From Turneriella parva DSM 21527 (GTDB lineage: Bacteria > Spirochaetota > Leptospiria > Turneriellales > Turneriellaceae), in NCBI RefSeq assembly GCF_000266885.1, contig NC_018020.1:1116001-1180000 (forward strand): a stretch of 64,000 nucleotides of DNA. The letters are read 5' to 3'. A model generated the notes under the pieces. That model ran no database searches. It saw only the letters and a list, made by a program, of their open reading frames with translations, and was not told the DNA's origin. Every line of letters begins with the position of its first letter. The stretch's first letter is position 1. Position numbers and translations under genes: made by a program. Shown piece by piece: positions 44,303 to 50,280 of this stretch.

Positions 44303-44342
44303 TGCCCTCTCTGTCATGGTTCAGCTGGCTCGTGTAATGAAT

Positions 44343-44500
44343 TCCATAGCTGTTGGCTTCGACTCCCCTGTATATGTGATGTGACATAATACCATAGCTA
44401 TGGATTTTCGCAGCCAATCGATCTCTCGATGCCGCGTCCACCAGCTCTGTTTTTCCATAGCTACTTGCACCTGCACATAGCTATGGAATTCCATAGCTAT
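44343..44500. promoter_or_regulatory. Cluster of five CCATAGCTATGG-like half or whole sites
   Basis: Copies or half-copies lie at 44344-44351, 44392-44403 (full 12-bp palindrome), 44455-44463, 44476-44486 and 44491-44500. The last two form a 24-bp perfect palindrome with GGAATTCC in the centre (44477-44500), adjoining the rhodanese stop. They lie upstream of the hydroxylase gene and downstream of the rhodanese operon. They look like operator sites; a terminator role for the last one is also possible. Confidence 0.55.
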
Positions 44501-44866
44501 TCACCCCAACGACATCAAGTTCATATGGTTAATACCGTTCTCCACGTTGGTGAACCCGGCAGATACCAGCACTCGCTGCGCCGAGCTAGAACGCATACCC
44601 GAAGCGCAATAGACAATCACCGGCTGCTCTTTGCTGCCAAGCGTCGCGATCTTTGCTGGCAACTGGTCAACCGGAATGTTGATCGCCCCTGAATAGTGGC
44701 CACCCGCAAACTCACCCGGGCTGCGCACGTCGATCACCTTTGCGCCCTGCTTTAACATTTCTTTTAACTTCACTTTGTTTCCTCCCATTTTGAATTTTTT
44801 ATAGAGATAGTAGATGGTAATTGCGCCGGCTCCAATGAGTAACAGTGTTTGTTGGTCTTGTGTCAT
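44501..44866 (-). CDS. Membrane-anchored rhodanese
   Basis: The protein has 121 residues. One N-terminal hydrophobic segment (about 8-22, LLLIGAGAITIYYLY) anchors it, and the rhodanese domain follows with VIDVRSPGEFAGGHYSGAIN and the active-site loop around Cys87 (VYCASGMRSS). It transfers sulfane sulfur through a Cys persulfide. It is the last gene of the operon csoR-like, DUF6132, CoA-disulfide reductase, rhodanese, 21 bases after the reductase gene. Its domain closely resembles the lipoprotein rhodanese at 47338, so the two are paralogues placed in different compartments or orientations. Confidence 0.9.
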   Translation of the reverse strand: MTQDQQTLLLIGAGAITIYYLYKKFKMGGNKVKLKEMLKQGAKVIDVRSPGEFAGGHYSGAINIPVDQLPAKIATLGSKEQPVIVYCASGMRSSSAQRVLVSAGFTNVENGINHMNLMSLG

Positions 44867-44887
44867 GTTATTCTCCTTAATATTGCC

Positions 44888-46540
44888 TTAATCCCACCTG
44901 CCTTGTTGCGCCGCAACGCCAAGCCAGCCGCCCGTGATGTTGTAGACATCTTTGAAGCCAGACTGCTTCAGAATGCGCTGCGCGACGTAGCTGCGCTGGC
45001 CCGACTGGCAAAGCAACGCGAGCGGTTTATCTTTCGCAATCTGCGCGAGGTTATCGCGCAGGCTATCGACGGGTATCTGGTATTCGCTTTGCAGGGGAAA
45101 CGACTTGGTTTCGCCCGGGCTGCGCACATCGAGCACCGCGTACTCGCTGCGCTTCTCGGCAAGCTGCGCCGCAGTAATCACGGGGGATAACCCAGCGTGA
45201 TGGTTCATTGCCTGAAACGCCGCCATGTTCACGGGGTCGTTGGCCGAAGAGTATGGCGGCGCGTACGCTAGATCAAGGCTCGCGAGATCATAGATCGTGA
45301 GCCAACCCACAATCGCGGTCGCAATGACGTCGATACGCTTTTCTGTACCTTCAGGGCCAAAAGCCTGCGCGCCCAACACGCGACCATCGGCGGGTGAGAA
45401 AATGATTTTGAGCGCCATGCGTTCTGCGTTCGGGTAATAGCCCGCATGGTTATTGCCGTGAATCATCACAGCCTGCGCGGTGATGTTGGCGGCTTTGGCT
45501 GCCTTTTCGGTGAGACCGGTCGATGCGAGCGTCTTGTCGAAGATTTTGATTACCGATGAACCTATTGCGCCACGGTAACGGCAGCGGTTGCCCATGAGTG
45601 CATTTTCTGCGGCAAGGCGGCCCTGGCGGTTCGCGGGGCCCGCCAAGGGCACCCGGGTCGCGCTGTGCGTGATGCGGTTGGTGATTTCTGCCATGTCGCC
45701 CACAACATAGATGTCTTCGTCAGAGCTTTGCATAAAGTCATTTACGACCACGCCGCCGGTCTTACCGATTTCTAGGCCGATCTGTTTTGCAAGGCTTGTC
45801 TCGGGCTTCACGCCTGCCGCAAACACGATGAAATCTGCCGTGAGCTTTGAACCATCAGAGAGCGTCAGCTCTTTGTTCGGTGCCACCGATTTAATCGTCG
45901 TCTGCGTCAGCACCCTGATGCCGTGGGTTTCGAGCTCGCGTTTCGCGAGGTTTGAAAACTCTGGGTCAAGGTTGGGCATCACGCCAGGCGCAAATTCGAC
46001 CAGTGTCACTTCGAAATTCTTGTGCTTCAGCGCCTCGGCAACTTCGATGCCGATGAAGCCGCCACCGACGACGGCGACGTGTTTGTGTTCTGCCTTCGCC
46101 ATCTGTTCGATGATCGCATCCATGTCTTCGACCCAGCGCAGCGAGAAGTGTGGTATATTCTCAACGCCTTCGACTGCAGGTTTCATGGGGTCACCACCCT
46201 GCGACAGTATCAGTTTGTCGTAGAGTATCTCATGCGTTTGGCCGCCCTGCGTGTAGGTGACAGTCTTTTTCACACGGTCGACATGCGTCACCTTCGTGCT
46301 GACGAGGGCTTTAACGCGATAGCGGTTCCAGAGGTCTTGCGGTGTGCGCAAGAGCAGCGTCTCTCGCTTCGGAATATCGCCACCGATGTGGTATGGCAGG
46401 CCGCAGTTCGCGAAAGAAATGTAGCCACTGCCTTCGATGAGGGTGATTTCTGCATTCTCGTCGAGTCTGCGCGCGCGGCCCGCCGCGGTAGCACCCCCAG
46501 CGACGCCGCCGACGATTACGATTTTTTTGTTTTGTGTCAT
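44888..46540 (-). CDS. CoA-disulfide reductase/NADH oxidase-like flavoprotein with C-terminal rhodanese
   Basis: ATG 46540, preceded by ggag, gives 550 residues; an in-frame start at 46648 would overlap DUF6132 and is unlikely. Residues 6-16 (KIVIVGGVAGG) bind FAD, and Cys46 in SFANCGLPYHIGGD is the single-Cys active site of CoA-disulfide reductases. The second nucleotide site is VAVVGGGFIGIEVAEAL. A dimerisation domain follows, and the C-terminal rhodanese domain (about 450-545) has Cys in LLCQSGQRSY. Fusion enzymes of this type reduce CoA persulfide or polysulfide with NAD(P)H and release sulfide. This is the central enzyme of the sulfur cluster; DUF6132 lies 2 bases upstream. Confidence 0.93.
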   Translation of the reverse strand: MTQNKKIVIVGGVAGGATAAGRARRLDENAEITLIEGSGYISFANCGLPYHIGGDIPKRETLLLRTPQDLWNRYRVKALVSTKVTHVDRVKKTVTYTQGGQTHEILYDKLILSQGGDPMKPAVEGVENIPHFSLRWVEDMDAIIEQMAKAEHKHVAVVGGGFIGIEVAEALKHKNFEVTLVEFAPGVMPNLDPEFSNLAKRELETHGIRVLTQTTIKSVAPNKELTLSDGSKLTADFIVFAAGVKPETSLAKQIGLEIGKTGGVVVNDFMQSSDEDIYVVGDMAEITNRITHSATRVPLAGPANRQGRLAAENALMGNRCRYRGAIGSSVIKIFDKTLASTGLTEKAAKAANITAQAVMIHGNNHAGYYPNAERMALKIIFSPADGRVLGAQAFGPEGTEKRIDVIATAIVGWLTIYDLASLDLAYAPPYSSANDPVNMAAFQAMNHHAGLSPVITAAQLAEKRSEYAVLDVRSPGETKSFPLQSEYQIPVDSLRDNLAQIAKDKPLALLCQSGQRSYVAQRILKQSGFKDVYNITGGWLGVAAQQGRWD

Positions 46541-46542
46541 TT

Positions 46543-46725
46543 TTATCTCCACCCTAACATTGCGCCCATCACGGCGCCGTAAATGATTGAAGGCACGGGG
46601 CGCGAAGTGATCGCACAGGCACCTCGTGTGCCGCCACCTGTCGAACAACCGATAAGGCGATAGTAGAGGTAACCCACTACGGCCCCACTGGCAATATATG
46701 AAATCAGTCTGATCGGGTCTGTCAT
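46543..46725 (-). CDS. DUF6132 small membrane protein
   Basis: This 60-residue protein has two hydrophobic segments (about 8-24 and 45-58) flanking a Cys-containing loop GCSTGGGTRGACAITSRP, the DUF6132 pattern. The two conserved Cys could carry persulfide or bind metal. It is found with rhodanese and redox genes in many bacteria. Here it lies between the CsoR-like repressor (19 bases) and the CoA-disulfide reductase (2 bases). The precise role is unknown. Confidence 0.8.
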   Translation of the reverse strand: MTDPIRLISYIASGAVVGYLYYRLIGCSTGGGTRGACAITSRPVPSIIYGAVMGAMLGWR

Positions 46726-46744
46726 TTTTGAAATCCTTCTTTAA

Positions 46745-47020
46745 TTACATTGTGAATGTCGCGCGAATGACCGACTGCAGATTTTTTTCAATCTCTGCCG
46801 CGGGCTTCTTCTGTCGCATGCATTCGCTTAAGTGTATCTCTAGATATGCCTCTGCGACTTTCCAGAGCGCGTTGTTTGCGGCTTTAATCTGCTGAATATC
46901 AGCCACACAATCTGAGCCGCCGGCGACGACGCGCTTCTGCAGGCTCTGCAATTGGCCAATCACACGGTTCAGGCGGTGGCCGAGTTTTTCACGCGACTCT
47001 GCATCTGCTGCATATCCCAT
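46745..47020 (-). CDS. CsoR/CstR-family repressor
   Basis: ATG 47020 gives 91 residues, the usual length; the frame stays open upstream to TTG 47056. The all-helical family pattern is clear: HRLNRVIGQLQSLQKRVV, then DCVADIQQIKAANNALWKVA, then EIHLSEC. The sensor residues are Cys38, His63 and Cys67. C-H-C is the copper-type CsoR set, whereas persulfide-type CstR normally uses only the two Cys. The operon (rhodaneses, CoA-disulfide reductase) speaks for sulfur sensing. The ATG lies inside an inverted repeat (47017-47031), so the protein probably represses itself and the divergent operon. Confidence 0.88.
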   Translation of the reverse strand: MGYAADAESREKLGHRLNRVIGQLQSLQKRVVAGGSDCVADIQQIKAANNALWKVAEAYLEIHLSECMRQKKPAAEIEKNLQSVIRATFTM

Positions 47021-47031
47021 ACTGGGTATGG
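47017..47031. promoter_or_regulatory. Operator-like inverted repeat CCATAC-TGG-GTATGG
   Basis: The six-base arms are perfect around three bases. With the flanks it reads ATATCCCATACTGGGTAT, resembling the A/T-flanked, G/C-tract operators known for CsoR and CstR. It overlaps the start codon of the repressor gene and lies upstream of the promoter of the divergent operon, so one bound repressor tetramer could cover both. Confidence 0.6.
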
Positions 47032-47039
47032 TATAATAT

Positions 47040-47068
47040 TTGACAGGGGGTGGCAACTTTTTTATATT
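47040..47068 (+). promoter_or_regulatory. Sigma70-type promoter of the DUF2892-rhodanese operon
   Basis: The -35 box TTGACA (47040-47045) and the -10 box TATATT (47063-47068) are 17 bases apart. Transcription would start near 47075, at the first base of a strong hairpin, about 50 bases before the DUF2892 ATG. The repressor operator lies nine bases upstream of the -35. Confidence 0.7.
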
Positions 47069-47073
47069 GTTTA

Positions 47074-47103
47074 CATCGGGCCGGGCAACGCCCCGGCCCG
47101 ATG
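47074..47103 (+). promoter_or_regulatory. Strong 5'-UTR hairpin (12-bp stem)
   Basis: The arms catcgggccggg and cccggcccgatg are perfect with a six-base loop. It starts where transcription should begin and ends 12 bases before the ribosome-binding site (aaggagct). A 5'-terminal stem of this strength normally protects mRNA from decay. No T-run follows, so termination is unlikely. Confidence 0.7.
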
Positions 47104-47123
47104 ATTCTCTTTAAGGAGCTATA

Positions 47124-47330
47124 ATGAAAAAGAATATGGGAAATGCAGATCGTATCATTCGCCTGGTGGCGGCCGTCGCAATAGGTGTGCTCTATGGGCT
47201 CAACCTGATTTCAGGCACTGTAGCCCTCGTGCTCGGCGTGGTTGCAGTCGCTTTTTTCGCGACTAGCCTCATTGGCTGGTGCCCGATGTATCTGCCATTC
47301 GGTCTTTCAACGTGCAAGGCAGCAAAGTGA
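47124..47330 (+). CDS. DUF2892 (YgaP-like) inner-membrane protein
   Basis: This 68-residue protein has a perfect ribosome-binding site (aaggagct). It begins MKKNMGNADRIIRLVAAVAI, the DUF2892 signature, followed by two hydrophobic segments and the conserved GWCPMYLPFGLSTCK end with two Cys. In E. coli YgaP this membrane unit is fused to a rhodanese; here a separate rhodanese gene follows after 7 bases, so the two probably form a split YgaP. It may export or relay sulfur species such as thiocyanate or persulfide. Confidence 0.9.
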   Translation: MKKNMGNADRIIRLVAAVAIGVLYGLNLISGTVALVLGVVAVAFFATSLIGWCPMYLPFGLSTCKAAK

Positions 47331-47337
47331 GGAGTTC

Positions 47338-47700
47338 ATGAAGAAACTCATTCTACTCGCCGTAGTCGCAGCTGCTTCCGTTTCTTGCAATAAAGAAGTA
47401 GGCACCCCTGCGGCGACAATAGCACCAGCGGCGCAGTCACGGGTGAAAGAGCTGTTAGATGGCAAAGCGCTCGTTGTCGATGTGCGCACACCCGGTGAGT
47501 TTGCCAACGGACACCACCCGCGTGCAGTGAACATACCGGTCGACCAGGTCGAATCACGCCTGAAAGAATTTGGTGCCAAGTCGCAGCCGATCGTGGTCTA
47601 TTGCGCATCGGGTGTGCGCAGCAGCCGCGCGAAGCAGGCACTCGAATCTGCAGGCTATTCTTCGGTGATTAACGCCGGCGGGTTTAAAGATTTGCCATAG
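47338..47700 (+). CDS. Lipoprotein rhodanese
   Basis: ATG 47338 (ribosome-binding site gtgagg) gives 120 residues. The signal peptide MKKLILLAVVAAASVSC ends in a lipobox with Cys17. The rhodanese domain follows, with VVDVRTPGEFANGHHPRAVN and the active-site Cys89 in VYCASGVRSS. It should act in the periplasm as a sulfurtransferase, handling sulfide-derived persulfide or thiosulfate. It forms an operon with DUF2892 and is a paralogue of the membrane-anchored rhodanese at 44501 on the opposite side of the cluster. Confidence 0.9.
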   Translation: MKKLILLAVVAAASVSCNKEVGTPAATIAPAAQSRVKELLDGKALVVDVRTPGEFANGHHPRAVNIPVDQVESRLKEFGAKSQPIVVYCASGVRSSRAKQALESAGYSSVINAGGFKDLP

Positions 47701-47744: not shown

Positions 47745-48110
47745 TTATGCCAAGGCGCGTTCGACCAGCACGTTTAGCTCGGCGGCTGAAAATGGTTTCG
47801 CCAGAAAAAATTGATTTCCGAATAATTCATTCTGCGCTTTTTGTTCGGCTTTGCTGATCAGACCCGAGAGAAAAATTACGGGTATCGATCGGTCGTTCAG
47901 CTCTTCCCATAAATTACTGATGAAAGTCGGGCCATCCATGTTGGGCATCATGATATCGGCAATGATAAGCTGCGGCTTCTTTTCAAGCGCCTTCTTCAAA
48001 GCAATTTGACCGTCTGCCGCAATCACGATTTCGTGATTTTTGGGCCTAAGGCACAGTTCGAGCATCTGCGTAATTTTGGCATCATCGTCGACGATCAGTA
48101 TACGAGCCAT
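47745..48110 (-). CDS. Stand-alone CheY-like response regulator
   Basis: The protein has 121 residues, a single receiver domain. All functional residues are present: ILIVDDDAK (acidic pair), LIIADIMMPNMDG (phospho-Asp), IFLSG (Ser/Thr switch) and FLAKPFS (Lys). There is no output domain, so it must act by binding a partner or as a phosphate carrier. It is divergent from the histidine kinase gene at 48250, a likely phosphodonor, as is the CheA-like kinase at 38 kb. Confidence 0.92.
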   Translation of the reverse strand: MARILIVDDDAKITQMLELCLRPKNHEIVIAADGQIALKKALEKKPQLIIADIMMPNMDGPTFISNLWEELNDRSIPVIFLSGLISKAEQKAQNELFGNQFFLAKPFSAAELNVLVERALA

Positions 48111-48179: not shown

Positions 48180-48234
48180 TATACCCTAAAAGGTATAGGC
48201 GAAAATTAAGAAATCCCATTTACAATGCAATGGG
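48180..48234. promoter_or_regulatory. Two inverted repeats in the divergent receiver/kinase promoter region
   Basis: TATACC-ctaaaa-GGTATA (48180-48197) and CCCATT-tacaatgc-AATGGG (48215-48234) are perfect short inverted repeats upstream of the kinase gene at 48250. They could be operators for a shared regulator, or an attenuating structure in the leader. No clear -35/-10 pair was assigned. Confidence 0.4.
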
Positions 48235-48249
48235 TCACCGACAGGTGTT

Positions 48250-50280
48250 ATGGTGCAGCAAAGCGAACTGTCTGAGCCGGGTTACCGTTCAACTCTCGAC
48301 AACCTGCTCGAGGGCTGTCAGATTCTCGACTTCGATTGGAAGTACCTGTACCTCAACGCCGCGGCCGCACGGCACAACCGGCGACCCAACAGTGACCTGC
48401 TCGGTCGCAAGATGGCCGATTGTTGGCCAGGAATAGATCAAACAGATCTTTACCGCAAGATTGATCTCGCCCTGCAGCAACGTGAAGCATTTCATCAAGA
48501 ACTCGACTTTCATTTTCAAGATGGGTCAGTGGGATGGTTCGAAGTTCGGGCGTCTCCGATTCCCGAAGGCGTCTTCTTGCTCTCGATCGATATTACAGAA
48601 CGCATCAGGCAGACAAACGAAGCCCATCGGCTAAAGCGCCTCTACTCGGCCCTTAGCCAGGTTAATCAGGCGATTGTGAGAATCGACAACCGCCAGGCTC
48701 TCTTCGATAAAGTGTGTGAAACTTTCGTCAACGATGCGGGCCTAAAGATGGCATGGATCGGCTGGCCTGATGCGAAAAATGAACGCATCGTGCCAGCCGC
48801 CGTTTTTGGCGATCAGAATGGCTATCTCGATGCCATTGAAATCCGCACCGACAATTCGCCGCAGGGTTCTGTGCCCGTCAGCAGCGCGTTTAAACAGGCT
48901 CAACCCCAGGTCTGCAATGACATGCTCGCCGAACCATCGCTCATGATCTGGCGCGAGAAAATTCTCGAGAACGGCTTCAGATCGAAGGCGGCGTTTCCCA
49001 TTGAGGCGGGCGGTTCGATTGGCGTGCTCGTTGCATATGCCGGTGAGAAAGACTTTTTCAGGGACAAAGAAATTGCGCTGATGAGCGAGGCTGCGACAGA
49101 CGTAGCATTTGCGCTACAGAATTTTTCACTGGAAGAAGAACGCAAAGCGCTGGCAAACGCTGCTTCACGCGAAAACAGATTTGCCCGCGCAATGATGGAA
49201 AGTATGCCGGGAATCATCTATTTTTACCGCAAATCTGGTCAGTTTCTGCGTTGGAACAAGAACTTCGAACTGATATCTGGCTACAGCCATGCTGAAATCG
49301 CGATGATGCACCCTTTGGATTTCTTTGACGACGCAGACAAAGACCTGATGGCGTCGCGAATCGCTGAGGTTTTTGAACATGGCGAGTCTGCGGTTGAGGC
49401 ACCGTTCAGAACCAAGAGCGGCAAGAAGCTGCCATACTATTTTACCGGCCAACTTATCGAATTTGAAGGTGAACAGTGCCTCATTGGCACAGGGGTCGAT
49501 ATTGCCTTGCTCAAGAACGCCCAGAATGAGATTCTGCGCCTGAATACCGAACTTGAACAGCGCGTAACTGAACGCACTGCAGAACTTGCGGCAGCCAACC
49601 GAGAGCTTGAGGCATTTAGCTATTCAGTCTCGCACGATCTGCGCTCTCCATTAAGGGCTATCAATGGCTTTGCCGAAATTGTTCTGAATAAATTTGGAGA
49701 ACTATTGCCAAAAGACGGCTACGACTATCTGCGCCGTATTCGCAACGCAGGCCATCGCATGGGCGAACTGATCGATGACTTACTCACTTTTTCAAGATTA
49801 AGCCGTGAGAGCCTGAGCCACGATCGGATAAATATGGGGAAACTGGCACAATCAGCGATCGATGAAATTGCGCCCCTAACGCAGGGTCGGTCGGTCAACA
49901 TACAATTGAAAAGCATATCTGAGGGTTATGGCGACGCCAAACTACTACGGCAAGTCTGGCTAAATCTTATCGGCAACGCCGTAAAATATACACGCAATTG
50001 CGAACATGCAAGTATCATCATTGGCAGCGAAGAGCACAATGGTGCCACTGCCTACTTCATAAAAGACAACGGAGTCGGCTTCAACATGGCATATGCGAGC
50101 AAGTTGTTCGGCGTTTTTCAGCGATTGCACCGGGATGATGAATTCGAAGGTACCGGTGTCGGGCTGGCGATTGTGCAGCGGGTAATTCACCGTCACGGTG
50201 GAAAAGTTTGGGCCGAGGCAGAAGAAGGCAAGGGTGCAATATTCTGGTTTACATTAGGCCGAACGGAGGAGAGAAAGTAA
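48250..50280 (+). CDS. PAS-GAF-PAS histidine kinase (phytochrome-type HisKA)
   Basis: The protein has 676 residues with no membrane segments. In order: PAS (about 15-115, LDNLLEGCQILDFDWKYLYL), GAF (about 135-300), PAS (about 310-425, IYFYRKSGQFLRWNKNFELI), coiled coil, HisKA with FSYSVSHDLRSPLRAINGFA (phospho-His), and HATPase with GNAVKYTRN, DNGVGFNM and FEGTGVGLAIVQRVI. The H-box SVSHDLRSPLR is the kind seen in phytochrome-like kinases. The next gene, 1 base later, encodes an Rcp1-like receiver, which is the expected partner. A cytoplasmic redox or metabolite signal is likely. Confidence 0.92.
   Translation: MVQQSELSEPGYRSTLDNLLEGCQILDFDWKYLYLNAAAARHNRRPNSDLLGRKMADCWPGIDQTDLYRKIDLALQQREAFHQELDFHFQDGSVGWFEVRASPIPEGVFLLSIDITERIRQTNEAHRLKRLYSALSQVNQAIVRIDNRQALFDKVCETFVNDAGLKMAWIGWPDAKNERIVPAAVFGDQNGYLDAIEIRTDNSPQGSVPVSSAFKQAQPQVCNDMLAEPSLMIWREKILENGFRSKAAFPIEAGGSIGVLVAYAGEKDFFRDKEIALMSEAATDVAFALQNFSLEEERKALANAASRENRFARAMMESMPGIIYFYRKSGQFLRWNKNFELISGYSHAEIAMMHPLDFFDDADKDLMASRIAEVFEHGESAVEAPFRTKSGKKLPYYFTGQLIEFEGEQCLIGTGVDIALLKNAQNEILRLNTELEQRVTERTAELAAANRELEAFSYSVSHDLRSPLRAINGFAEIVLNKFGELLPKDGYDYLRRIRNAGHRMGELIDDLLTFSRLSRESLSHDRINMGKLAQSAIDEIAPLTQGRSVNIQLKSISEGYGDAKLLRQVWLNLIGNAVKYTRNCEHASIIIGSEEHNGATAYFIKDNGVGFNMAYASKLFGVFQRLHRDDEFEGTGVGLAIVQRVIHRHGGKVWAEAEEGKGAIFWFTLGRTEERK

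Follow-up and report, generated by a model that had tools for sequence, protein, structure and literature searches.

In Enterococcus faecalis, an enzyme that converts coenzyme A (CoA) persulfide to CoA and H2S is controlled by CstR together with two rhodaneses (PMC9405070). The sulfane-sulfur sensor ScCsoR of Streptomyces coelicolor requires both of its Cys residues for the response to sulfane sulfur (PMC7533328). TTHA1953 of Thermus thermophilus binds DNA more weakly without reductant and in the presence of Cu(II) or H2O2, but not in the presence of NaHS (PMC10318464). Here we describe a cst-like gene cluster with a CsoR-family repressor, located in a 64,000-nt stretch of DNA (the window, in whose coordinates positions are given) from contig NC_018020.1 of Turneriella parva DSM 21527. 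T. parva is a free-living spirochaete with a genome of 4,409,302 bases in two contigs.

A cst-like gene cluster in Turneriella parva

Gene order and profile matches confirmed that six genes lie between 44501 and 47700, placed and oriented as in a preliminary description of the region. The two gene sets are separated by one operator, a 10-bp inverted repeat in which 9/10 positions match. The elements are as follows.

46745..47020, minus strand: CsoR-family repressor of 91 aa with Cys38, His63 and Cys67 (PF02583, 56.8 bits; family fold; own clade)
46543..46725, minus strand: small DUF6132 membrane protein with two Cys (orthologue above the DUF6132 cut-off; adjoins the repressor across the genus)
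44888..46540, minus strand: CoA-disulfide/CoA-persulfide reductase-rhodanese fusion (CoADR-Rhd) with Cys46 and Cys511 (TIGR03385, 438 bits, plus a rhodanese domain)
44501..44866, minus strand: membrane-anchored rhodanese with active-site Cys87 (PF00581, 65.5 bits; orthologues)
47013..47035: main operator TATCCCATACTGGGTATGGTATA, inverted repeat 47013-47022/47026-47035
47124..47330, plus strand: DUF2892/YgaP-like transmembrane protein (PF11127, now YgaP-like_TM, 76.6 bits)
47338..47700, plus strand: lipoprotein rhodanese with predicted lipidated Cys17 and active-site Cys89 (PF00581, 63.3 bits; N-terminal signal)

On the minus strand the order is repressor, DUF6132, CoADR-Rhd and membrane rhodanese, with intergenic gaps of 2-21 bases, and on the plus strand DUF2892 precedes the lipoprotein rhodanese by 7 bases. 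Such tight spacing on both strands implies two operons.

Like the cst-like operon of E. faecalis (CstR, RhdA, RhdB, CoAPR; PMC9405070), the T. parva cluster combines a CsoR-family repressor with stand-alone rhodaneses and a CoA-persulfide reductase-rhodanese fusion, and the catalytic Cys pair C42/C508 of E. faecalis corresponds to C46/C511 of T. parva. The two systems differ in that the T. parva repressor belongs to another clade and has His63, and in that T. parva, a double-membrane bacterium, adds DUF6132, DUF2892 and a lipoprotein rhodanese in a divergent layout. What is new is a cluster of a known, cst-like kind under a distinct, unnamed CsoR-family clade. From the sequence comparisons given below, the repressor very probably responds to sulfane sulfur and controls a cst-like detoxification cluster as a member of a distinct CsoR-family lineage.

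Phylogeny of the repressor

The repressor matches PF02583 (the CsoR/RcnR or DUF156 family) at 56.8 bits against a cut-off of 22.8. Its AlphaFold2 model (pLDDT 82) shows helices at residues 4-33, 38-69 and 74-89, the three-helix fold of the family, and the top 20 structural matches in the PDB are all CsoR-family proteins, at E-values of at least 0.016. No NCBIfam model gives the protein a name: RicR, FrmR and RcnR match far below their cut-offs. Because a CstR query gives the same three models, these labels leave the type of the repressor undecided.

Kin of the repressor were gathered from 40 relatives, from 296 genomes of the phylum and from a species genome collection. Sequences of Staphylococcus aureus CstR and Bacillus subtilis CsoR served as search queries only, and the references in the tree were taken from PDB alignments and annotated records. 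In the phylum search clade members scored at least 85 bits, and the other family members listed scored at most 60 bits. Among the spirochaetes searched, the clade is limited to the class of T. parva; outside the spirochaetes, the species genome collection yielded members from Sericytochromatia, SAR116 and several candidate phyla. A tblastn search of plasmids with the repressor of locus L081, a clade member, gave no match. Two near-identical repressor loci (L092 and L095) come from metagenome-assembled genomes (MAGs) of the same cave study that are labelled Turneriella parva and Caldithrix; at least one of these labels is probably wrong.

A maximum-likelihood tree of 87 sequences places the repressor clade, with 40 sequences, on one side of a single branch (support 100/98), apart from copper CsoR, the CstR/ScCsoR types, FrmR/DmeR and InrS. 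Clustering with copper CsoR, which the preliminary description had named as an observation that would speak against a sulfur role, was thus not found. Its alternative of a CstR with a relic His is not supported as worded, because the best tree puts the repressor outside the CstR/ScCsoR-type clade (support 95/92) and most members of its own clade share the His, so that it is not the leftover of a single protein.

It could still be argued that the repressor is a true CstR which has diverged and has retained or regained the His. Such an origin would account for the like neighbours (CoA-persulfide reductase, rhodaneses) and for the shared acidic residue in front of the first Cys, and the approximately unbiased (AU) test did not reject a grouping of the clade with CstR (p 0.31), so a sister relation is compatible with it. 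The same test did not reject a grouping with copper CsoR either (p 0.27); the tree was built from only 93 columns and does not settle the deep order. Apart from the position of the clade, the length of the stretch before the first Cys argues against a true CstR: in 40/40 clade members it exceeds that of all CsoR and CstR references by 1-10 residues. The His position points the same way, since the CstR-type references have Asn (5/5 in the CstR group) or Gly there and never His. In the individual comparison, staphylococcal CstR (L171) and SpCstR (7mq1) resemble the T. parva repressor in fold, the two Cys, the Asp before the first Cys and their sulfur neighbours, but they carry Asn where T. parva has His63, lack the additional residue ahead of the first Cys, and fall in a separate clade. 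The two Cys stand at the CsoR positions as in CstR, and His63 lies between them, where CstR has none. A true CstR is therefore a highly improbable identity for this protein.

Cysteine and histidine residues

The preliminary description had numbered Cys38, His63 and Cys67 correctly from the ATG at 47020. These residues align with Cys36, His61 and Cys65 of Mycobacterium tuberculosis CsoR, and the Cys-His-Cys ligand set for copper is present in the T. parva repressor. In the alignment of the clade both Cys are invariant (40/40). The His63 position is occupied by His in 28/40 members, by Tyr in 10/40 and by Ser in 2/40, with six changes on the tree. In 38/40 members an acidic residue (Asp37 in T. 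parva) directly precedes the first Cys, as it does in CstR-type sensors.

Copper CsoR (2hh7, 4m1p) is like the T. parva repressor in its aligned Cys-His-Cys and its class of operator, but it has a Tyr before the first Cys, a conserved Glu81 and CopA neighbours, all of which the T. parva repressor lacks. The equivalent of the second-shell Tyr35 occurs in 0/40 clade members and the column equivalent to Glu81 is variable, whereas Tyr precedes the first Cys in 28/28 members of the copper CsoR group, a count that is partly due to construction, as L115 (E-C) and L129 (D-C) had been excluded from this group beforehand.

One possible explanation for the presence of the complete ligand set is a dual sensor, in which Cys38-His63-Cys67 would be a Cu(I) site like that of CsoR, the same Cys would react with sulfane sulfur, and either signal would cause derepression. 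The alignment of His63 with a copper ligand and the retention of His in most of the clade speak for this idea. However, Tyr replaces His in orthologues that have the same operon. In one orthologue of the same genus (L067/L036) the order repressor, DUF6132, CoADR-Rhd and membrane rhodanese is kept and an operator lies at the start codon; the His is thus not needed for the job of the repressor there, and no other single observation speaks as strongly against a copper site. Tyr is also found in a second orthologue of the same genus (L066/L035), which has kept the adjacent rhodanese. Among the spirochaete CsoR-family proteins found at the level of the class, L059-L061 have both Cys but Glu or Gln at the His position.

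Gene neighbourhoods and copper genes

Neighbourhoods were examined within a radius of 3 kb, the sulfur set comprising rhodanese, persulfide dioxygenase, TauE, DUF2892, CoADR and SoxY/W-like genes. With several sulfur-gene queries taken from clade loci, the CopA query taken from a copper locus, and near-copies counted separately, a sulfur gene was found at 23/42 clade loci and CopA at 0/42. The corresponding counts for a comparison group of copper proteins with the Tyr-Cys signature were 1/35 and 13/35 (Fisher p 3e-7 for sulfur genes and 8e-6 for CopA, uncorrected for phylogeny).

In five remote members of the clade (L079, L081, L085, L086 and L091) the repressor gene is divergent from a rhodanese-TauE-persulfide dioxygenase set, a layout that resembles the reference actinobacterial and staphylococcal loci. 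In SAR116 (L094, L096-L100) the repressor is divergent from SoxW- and SoxY-like genes, and sites of the operator type lie close to them. Together with the invariant Cys and the enzymes encoded in T. parva, these clade-wide neighbourhoods support the sulfur role that had been suggested for the repressor.

The copA-copZ locus of T. parva (C1:646022) has neither a CsoR-family gene nor the operator beside it, and the Tyr-Cys signature occurs in 0/2 of the CsoR-family proteins of this organism. Judged by its own clade, the absent second-shell Tyr and the lack of CopA nearby, the repressor is not a canonical copper CsoR. Positive support for copper sensing does not go beyond the aligned His, and co-sensing is unlikely. 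The earlier proposal that the protein may sense both metal and sulfur sits badly with the six changes at the His position, the Tyr of L067/L036 beside an intact operon and operator, the missing second-shell Tyr and the absence of the operator at copA-copZ, and we regard a dual sensor as improbable.

Two further associations were seen. A gene for a ClC chloride channel adjoins the repressor gene in Leptospiraceae (L040/L073, L042/L078), opposite a rhodanese-DUF2892 pair, and in three phyla DUF302 genes lie close to CsoR-family repressors with a link to sulfur (L084/L045, L172, L175, L181).

Enzymes and compartments

CoADR-Rhd scores 438 bits with TIGR03385, below the equivalog cut-off of 579 of this model. 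Its domain order and its two catalytic Cys (Cys46 and Cys511) are those of CoA-disulfide/CoA-persulfide reductase-rhodaneses, and the closest solved structures are 3icr and 8a56, the latter a CoA-persulfide reductase. In one MAG (L038/L069) the CoADR gene is split into two frames (105 + 417 aa), by either a frameshift or an assembly error.

Both stand-alone rhodaneses have intact CASG(M/V)RS active-site loops. The membrane rhodanese has a Lys-rich stretch after its transmembrane segment, which suggests that its rhodanese domain is cytoplasmic. Assignment of the other enzyme as a lipoprotein is supported by an N-terminal signal and by a Cys kept in four orthologues. That rhodaneses lie in the cytoplasm, the membrane and the periplasm, as first proposed, fits these features; the predicted topology and the lipoprotein Cys support separate compartments and not the suggested relay across the membrane, which is speculative. 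The rhodanese and the DUF2892 transmembrane domain, which are fused in the YgaP type, are encoded by two separate neighbouring genes in T. parva. The DUF6132 model gives 9.2 bits with the T. parva copy, which carries a small insertion, and 26.3 bits with the L036/L067 orthologue (cut-off 23.2). As the T. parva copy is below the cut-off, the name is safe only through the orthologue.

A search of the T. parva genome for a persulfide dioxygenase with one query gave weak matches only (37 bits), so the sulfur route is probably reductive; the cluster as a whole, to judge from its predicted enzymes, probably detoxifies reactive sulfur. ScCsoR (PMC7533328) is alike in its two Cys, its operator ATACCn6GGTAT and its rhodanese and sulfite-transporter neighbours. 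Its setting differs in the Gly at the His position of plasmid-borne actinobacterial homologues and in an oxidative route with persulfide dioxygenase.

The encoded enzymes also bear on the possibility that the repressor answers to disulfide stress in general and controls sulfur genes incidentally, as TTHA1953 does in part in vitro. The effects of reductant, Cu(II), H2O2 and NaHS on TTHA1953 (PMC10318464) would agree with such a thiol-redox repressor, but the test is indecisive because NaHS is not sulfane sulfur. Moreover, the enzymes of the T. parva cluster act on persulfides and no peroxide-stress gene lies within the two operons, which makes a general redox repressor quite unlikely here. TTHA1953 is alike in that a CsoR-family protein controls sulfur genes through an operator with repeated TAC/GTA half-sites; it differs in acting on distant sox genes and in a half-site spacing that is one base different.

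Operators and promoters

Three further elements were predicted around the main operator.

47028..47056, minus strand: predicted repressor promoter, TTGCCA-17-TACCAT
47040..47068, plus strand: predicted divergent promoter, TTGACA-17-TATATT (11/12)
47074..47103, plus strand: perfect G+C-rich hairpin of 12 bp where the mRNA of DUF2892 is predicted to begin (folding of the segment, -28.4 kcal/mol)

The main operator covers the predicted -10 region of the repressor gene and reaches into its ATG, and it ends 4 bases before the predicted divergent -35 region. Transcription of the repressor gene is predicted to start at the ATG itself, so the mRNA may be leaderless. The hairpin could possibly act as a stabiliser or protective stem of the mRNA; at roughly this position two orthologues carry weaker hairpins that differ from it. 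No RNA families were found near the locus with Rfam.

Operators were sought by pattern searches of the genome, with reversed patterns as controls. The genus consensus TATACCATACCnGGTATGGTATA, a perfect palindrome in L068, contains two overlapping copies of ATACCn6GGTAT. The main operator of T. parva differs from it by 2 mismatches and is the sole such site in the 4.41-Mb genome. With up to 3 mismatches allowed, T. parva and five other genomes of the genus have one site each, always at the repressor gene, and a seventh (G004) has a weaker form; the reversed patterns gave zero matches. In the clade as a whole ATACCn6GGTAT (at most 1 mismatch) lies upstream of 25/37 genes, where about 2 were expected. 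This is the operator type of ScCsoR (PMC7533328).

A second operator, which was not part of the preliminary description, lies outside 44501-47700 in the divergent promoter of two signalling genes.

48180..48197: second operator TATACCCTAAAAGGTATA, an exact TATACCN6GGTATA that occurs nowhere else in the genome (control 0)
47745..48110, minus strand: single-domain response regulator (PF00072, 71.4 bits), a possible further target beside the second operator
48250..50280, plus strand: PAS-GAF-PAS histidine kinase, a possible further target beside the second operator

With its twelve fixed bases TATACCN6GGTATA is expected about 0.26 times in a random genome of this size, and of five exact ATACCn6GGTAT sites inspected only this one stands clearly between divergent genes. 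It is likely a second target of the repressor. The closest relative, L064, does not show this arrangement and has STAS and helicase genes there. A parallel is YrkD of Bacillus licheniformis, since the two-component genes nreBC are part of the cluster under its control (PMC9918477).

Several copies resembling CCATAGCTATGG were noticed at 44339-44502, between the membrane rhodanese gene and a fatty-acid hydroxylase gene, where 4/8 of the matches in the window lie. The exact 12-mer occurs only twice in the genome, and these copies are possibly sites of another regulator.

Proposed mechanism

In the mechanism which we favour, the reduced repressor would bind the palindrome at 47013-47035, and probably also 48180-48197, and so silence its own operon and the divergent operon of DUF2892 and the lipoprotein rhodanese. 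Sulfane sulfur, as persulfides or polysulfides, would react with Cys38 and Cys67. Most likely the product would be a persulfide or an intersubunit di- to tetrasulfide bridge, upon which the repressor would leave the DNA. The induced CoADR-Rhd would draw on CoA persulfide or polysulfide for sulfane sulfur and use NAD(P)H to reduce this to H2S. The membrane rhodanese and the lipoprotein rhodanese would each handle sulfane sulfur on its own side of the inner membrane. His63 would not be a required ligand but may tune the reactivity of Cys67.

Several observations weigh against a sulfane-sulfur sensor. No sulfur gene was found near 19/42 clade loci, and none was seen near the T. parva paralogue (C1:2034408). 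Asp also precedes the first Cys in DmeR and in CsoRGz (6ahx), which is described as copper-sensing; the acidic residue therefore excludes a copper CsoR of the canonical type but leaves room for other metal sensors. ATACCn6GGTAT is also present upstream of 10/17 genes of the copper clade. It is thus a family operator which does not reveal the effector, and we rejected it as evidence for sulfur. Finally, sulfur neighbours are less frequent at clade loci without the His (3/12) than at those with it (20/30; p 0.02, uncorrected for kinship). The His may therefore matter in the sulfur role, and the same difference can be read in favour of the dual sensor.

A wider form of the proposal takes the clade as a further, separately evolved line of sulfane-sulfur sensors in Leptospirae, Sericytochromatia, SAR116 Alphaproteobacteria and candidate phyla. 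The His at the copper-ligand position would serve sulfur chemistry by tuning Cys67 and may also admit a metal input, and in T. parva the repressor would link sulfur stress to the two-component pair. We offer this extension tentatively, as the less probable outcome.

If a sulfane-sulfur-responsive repressor is correct, Cys-His-Cys alone would not identify a CsoR-family protein as a copper sensor, as the motif is found across this clade and often in a sulfur setting, and automatic labels such as 'metal-sensitive repressor' would often be misleading. The clade, so far unstudied, would provide natural His and Tyr variants beside the same operon, in which the role of this position in metal versus sulfur sensing is directly testable. 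The repressor would also be a candidate regulator of the response to reactive sulfur in Leptospirae.

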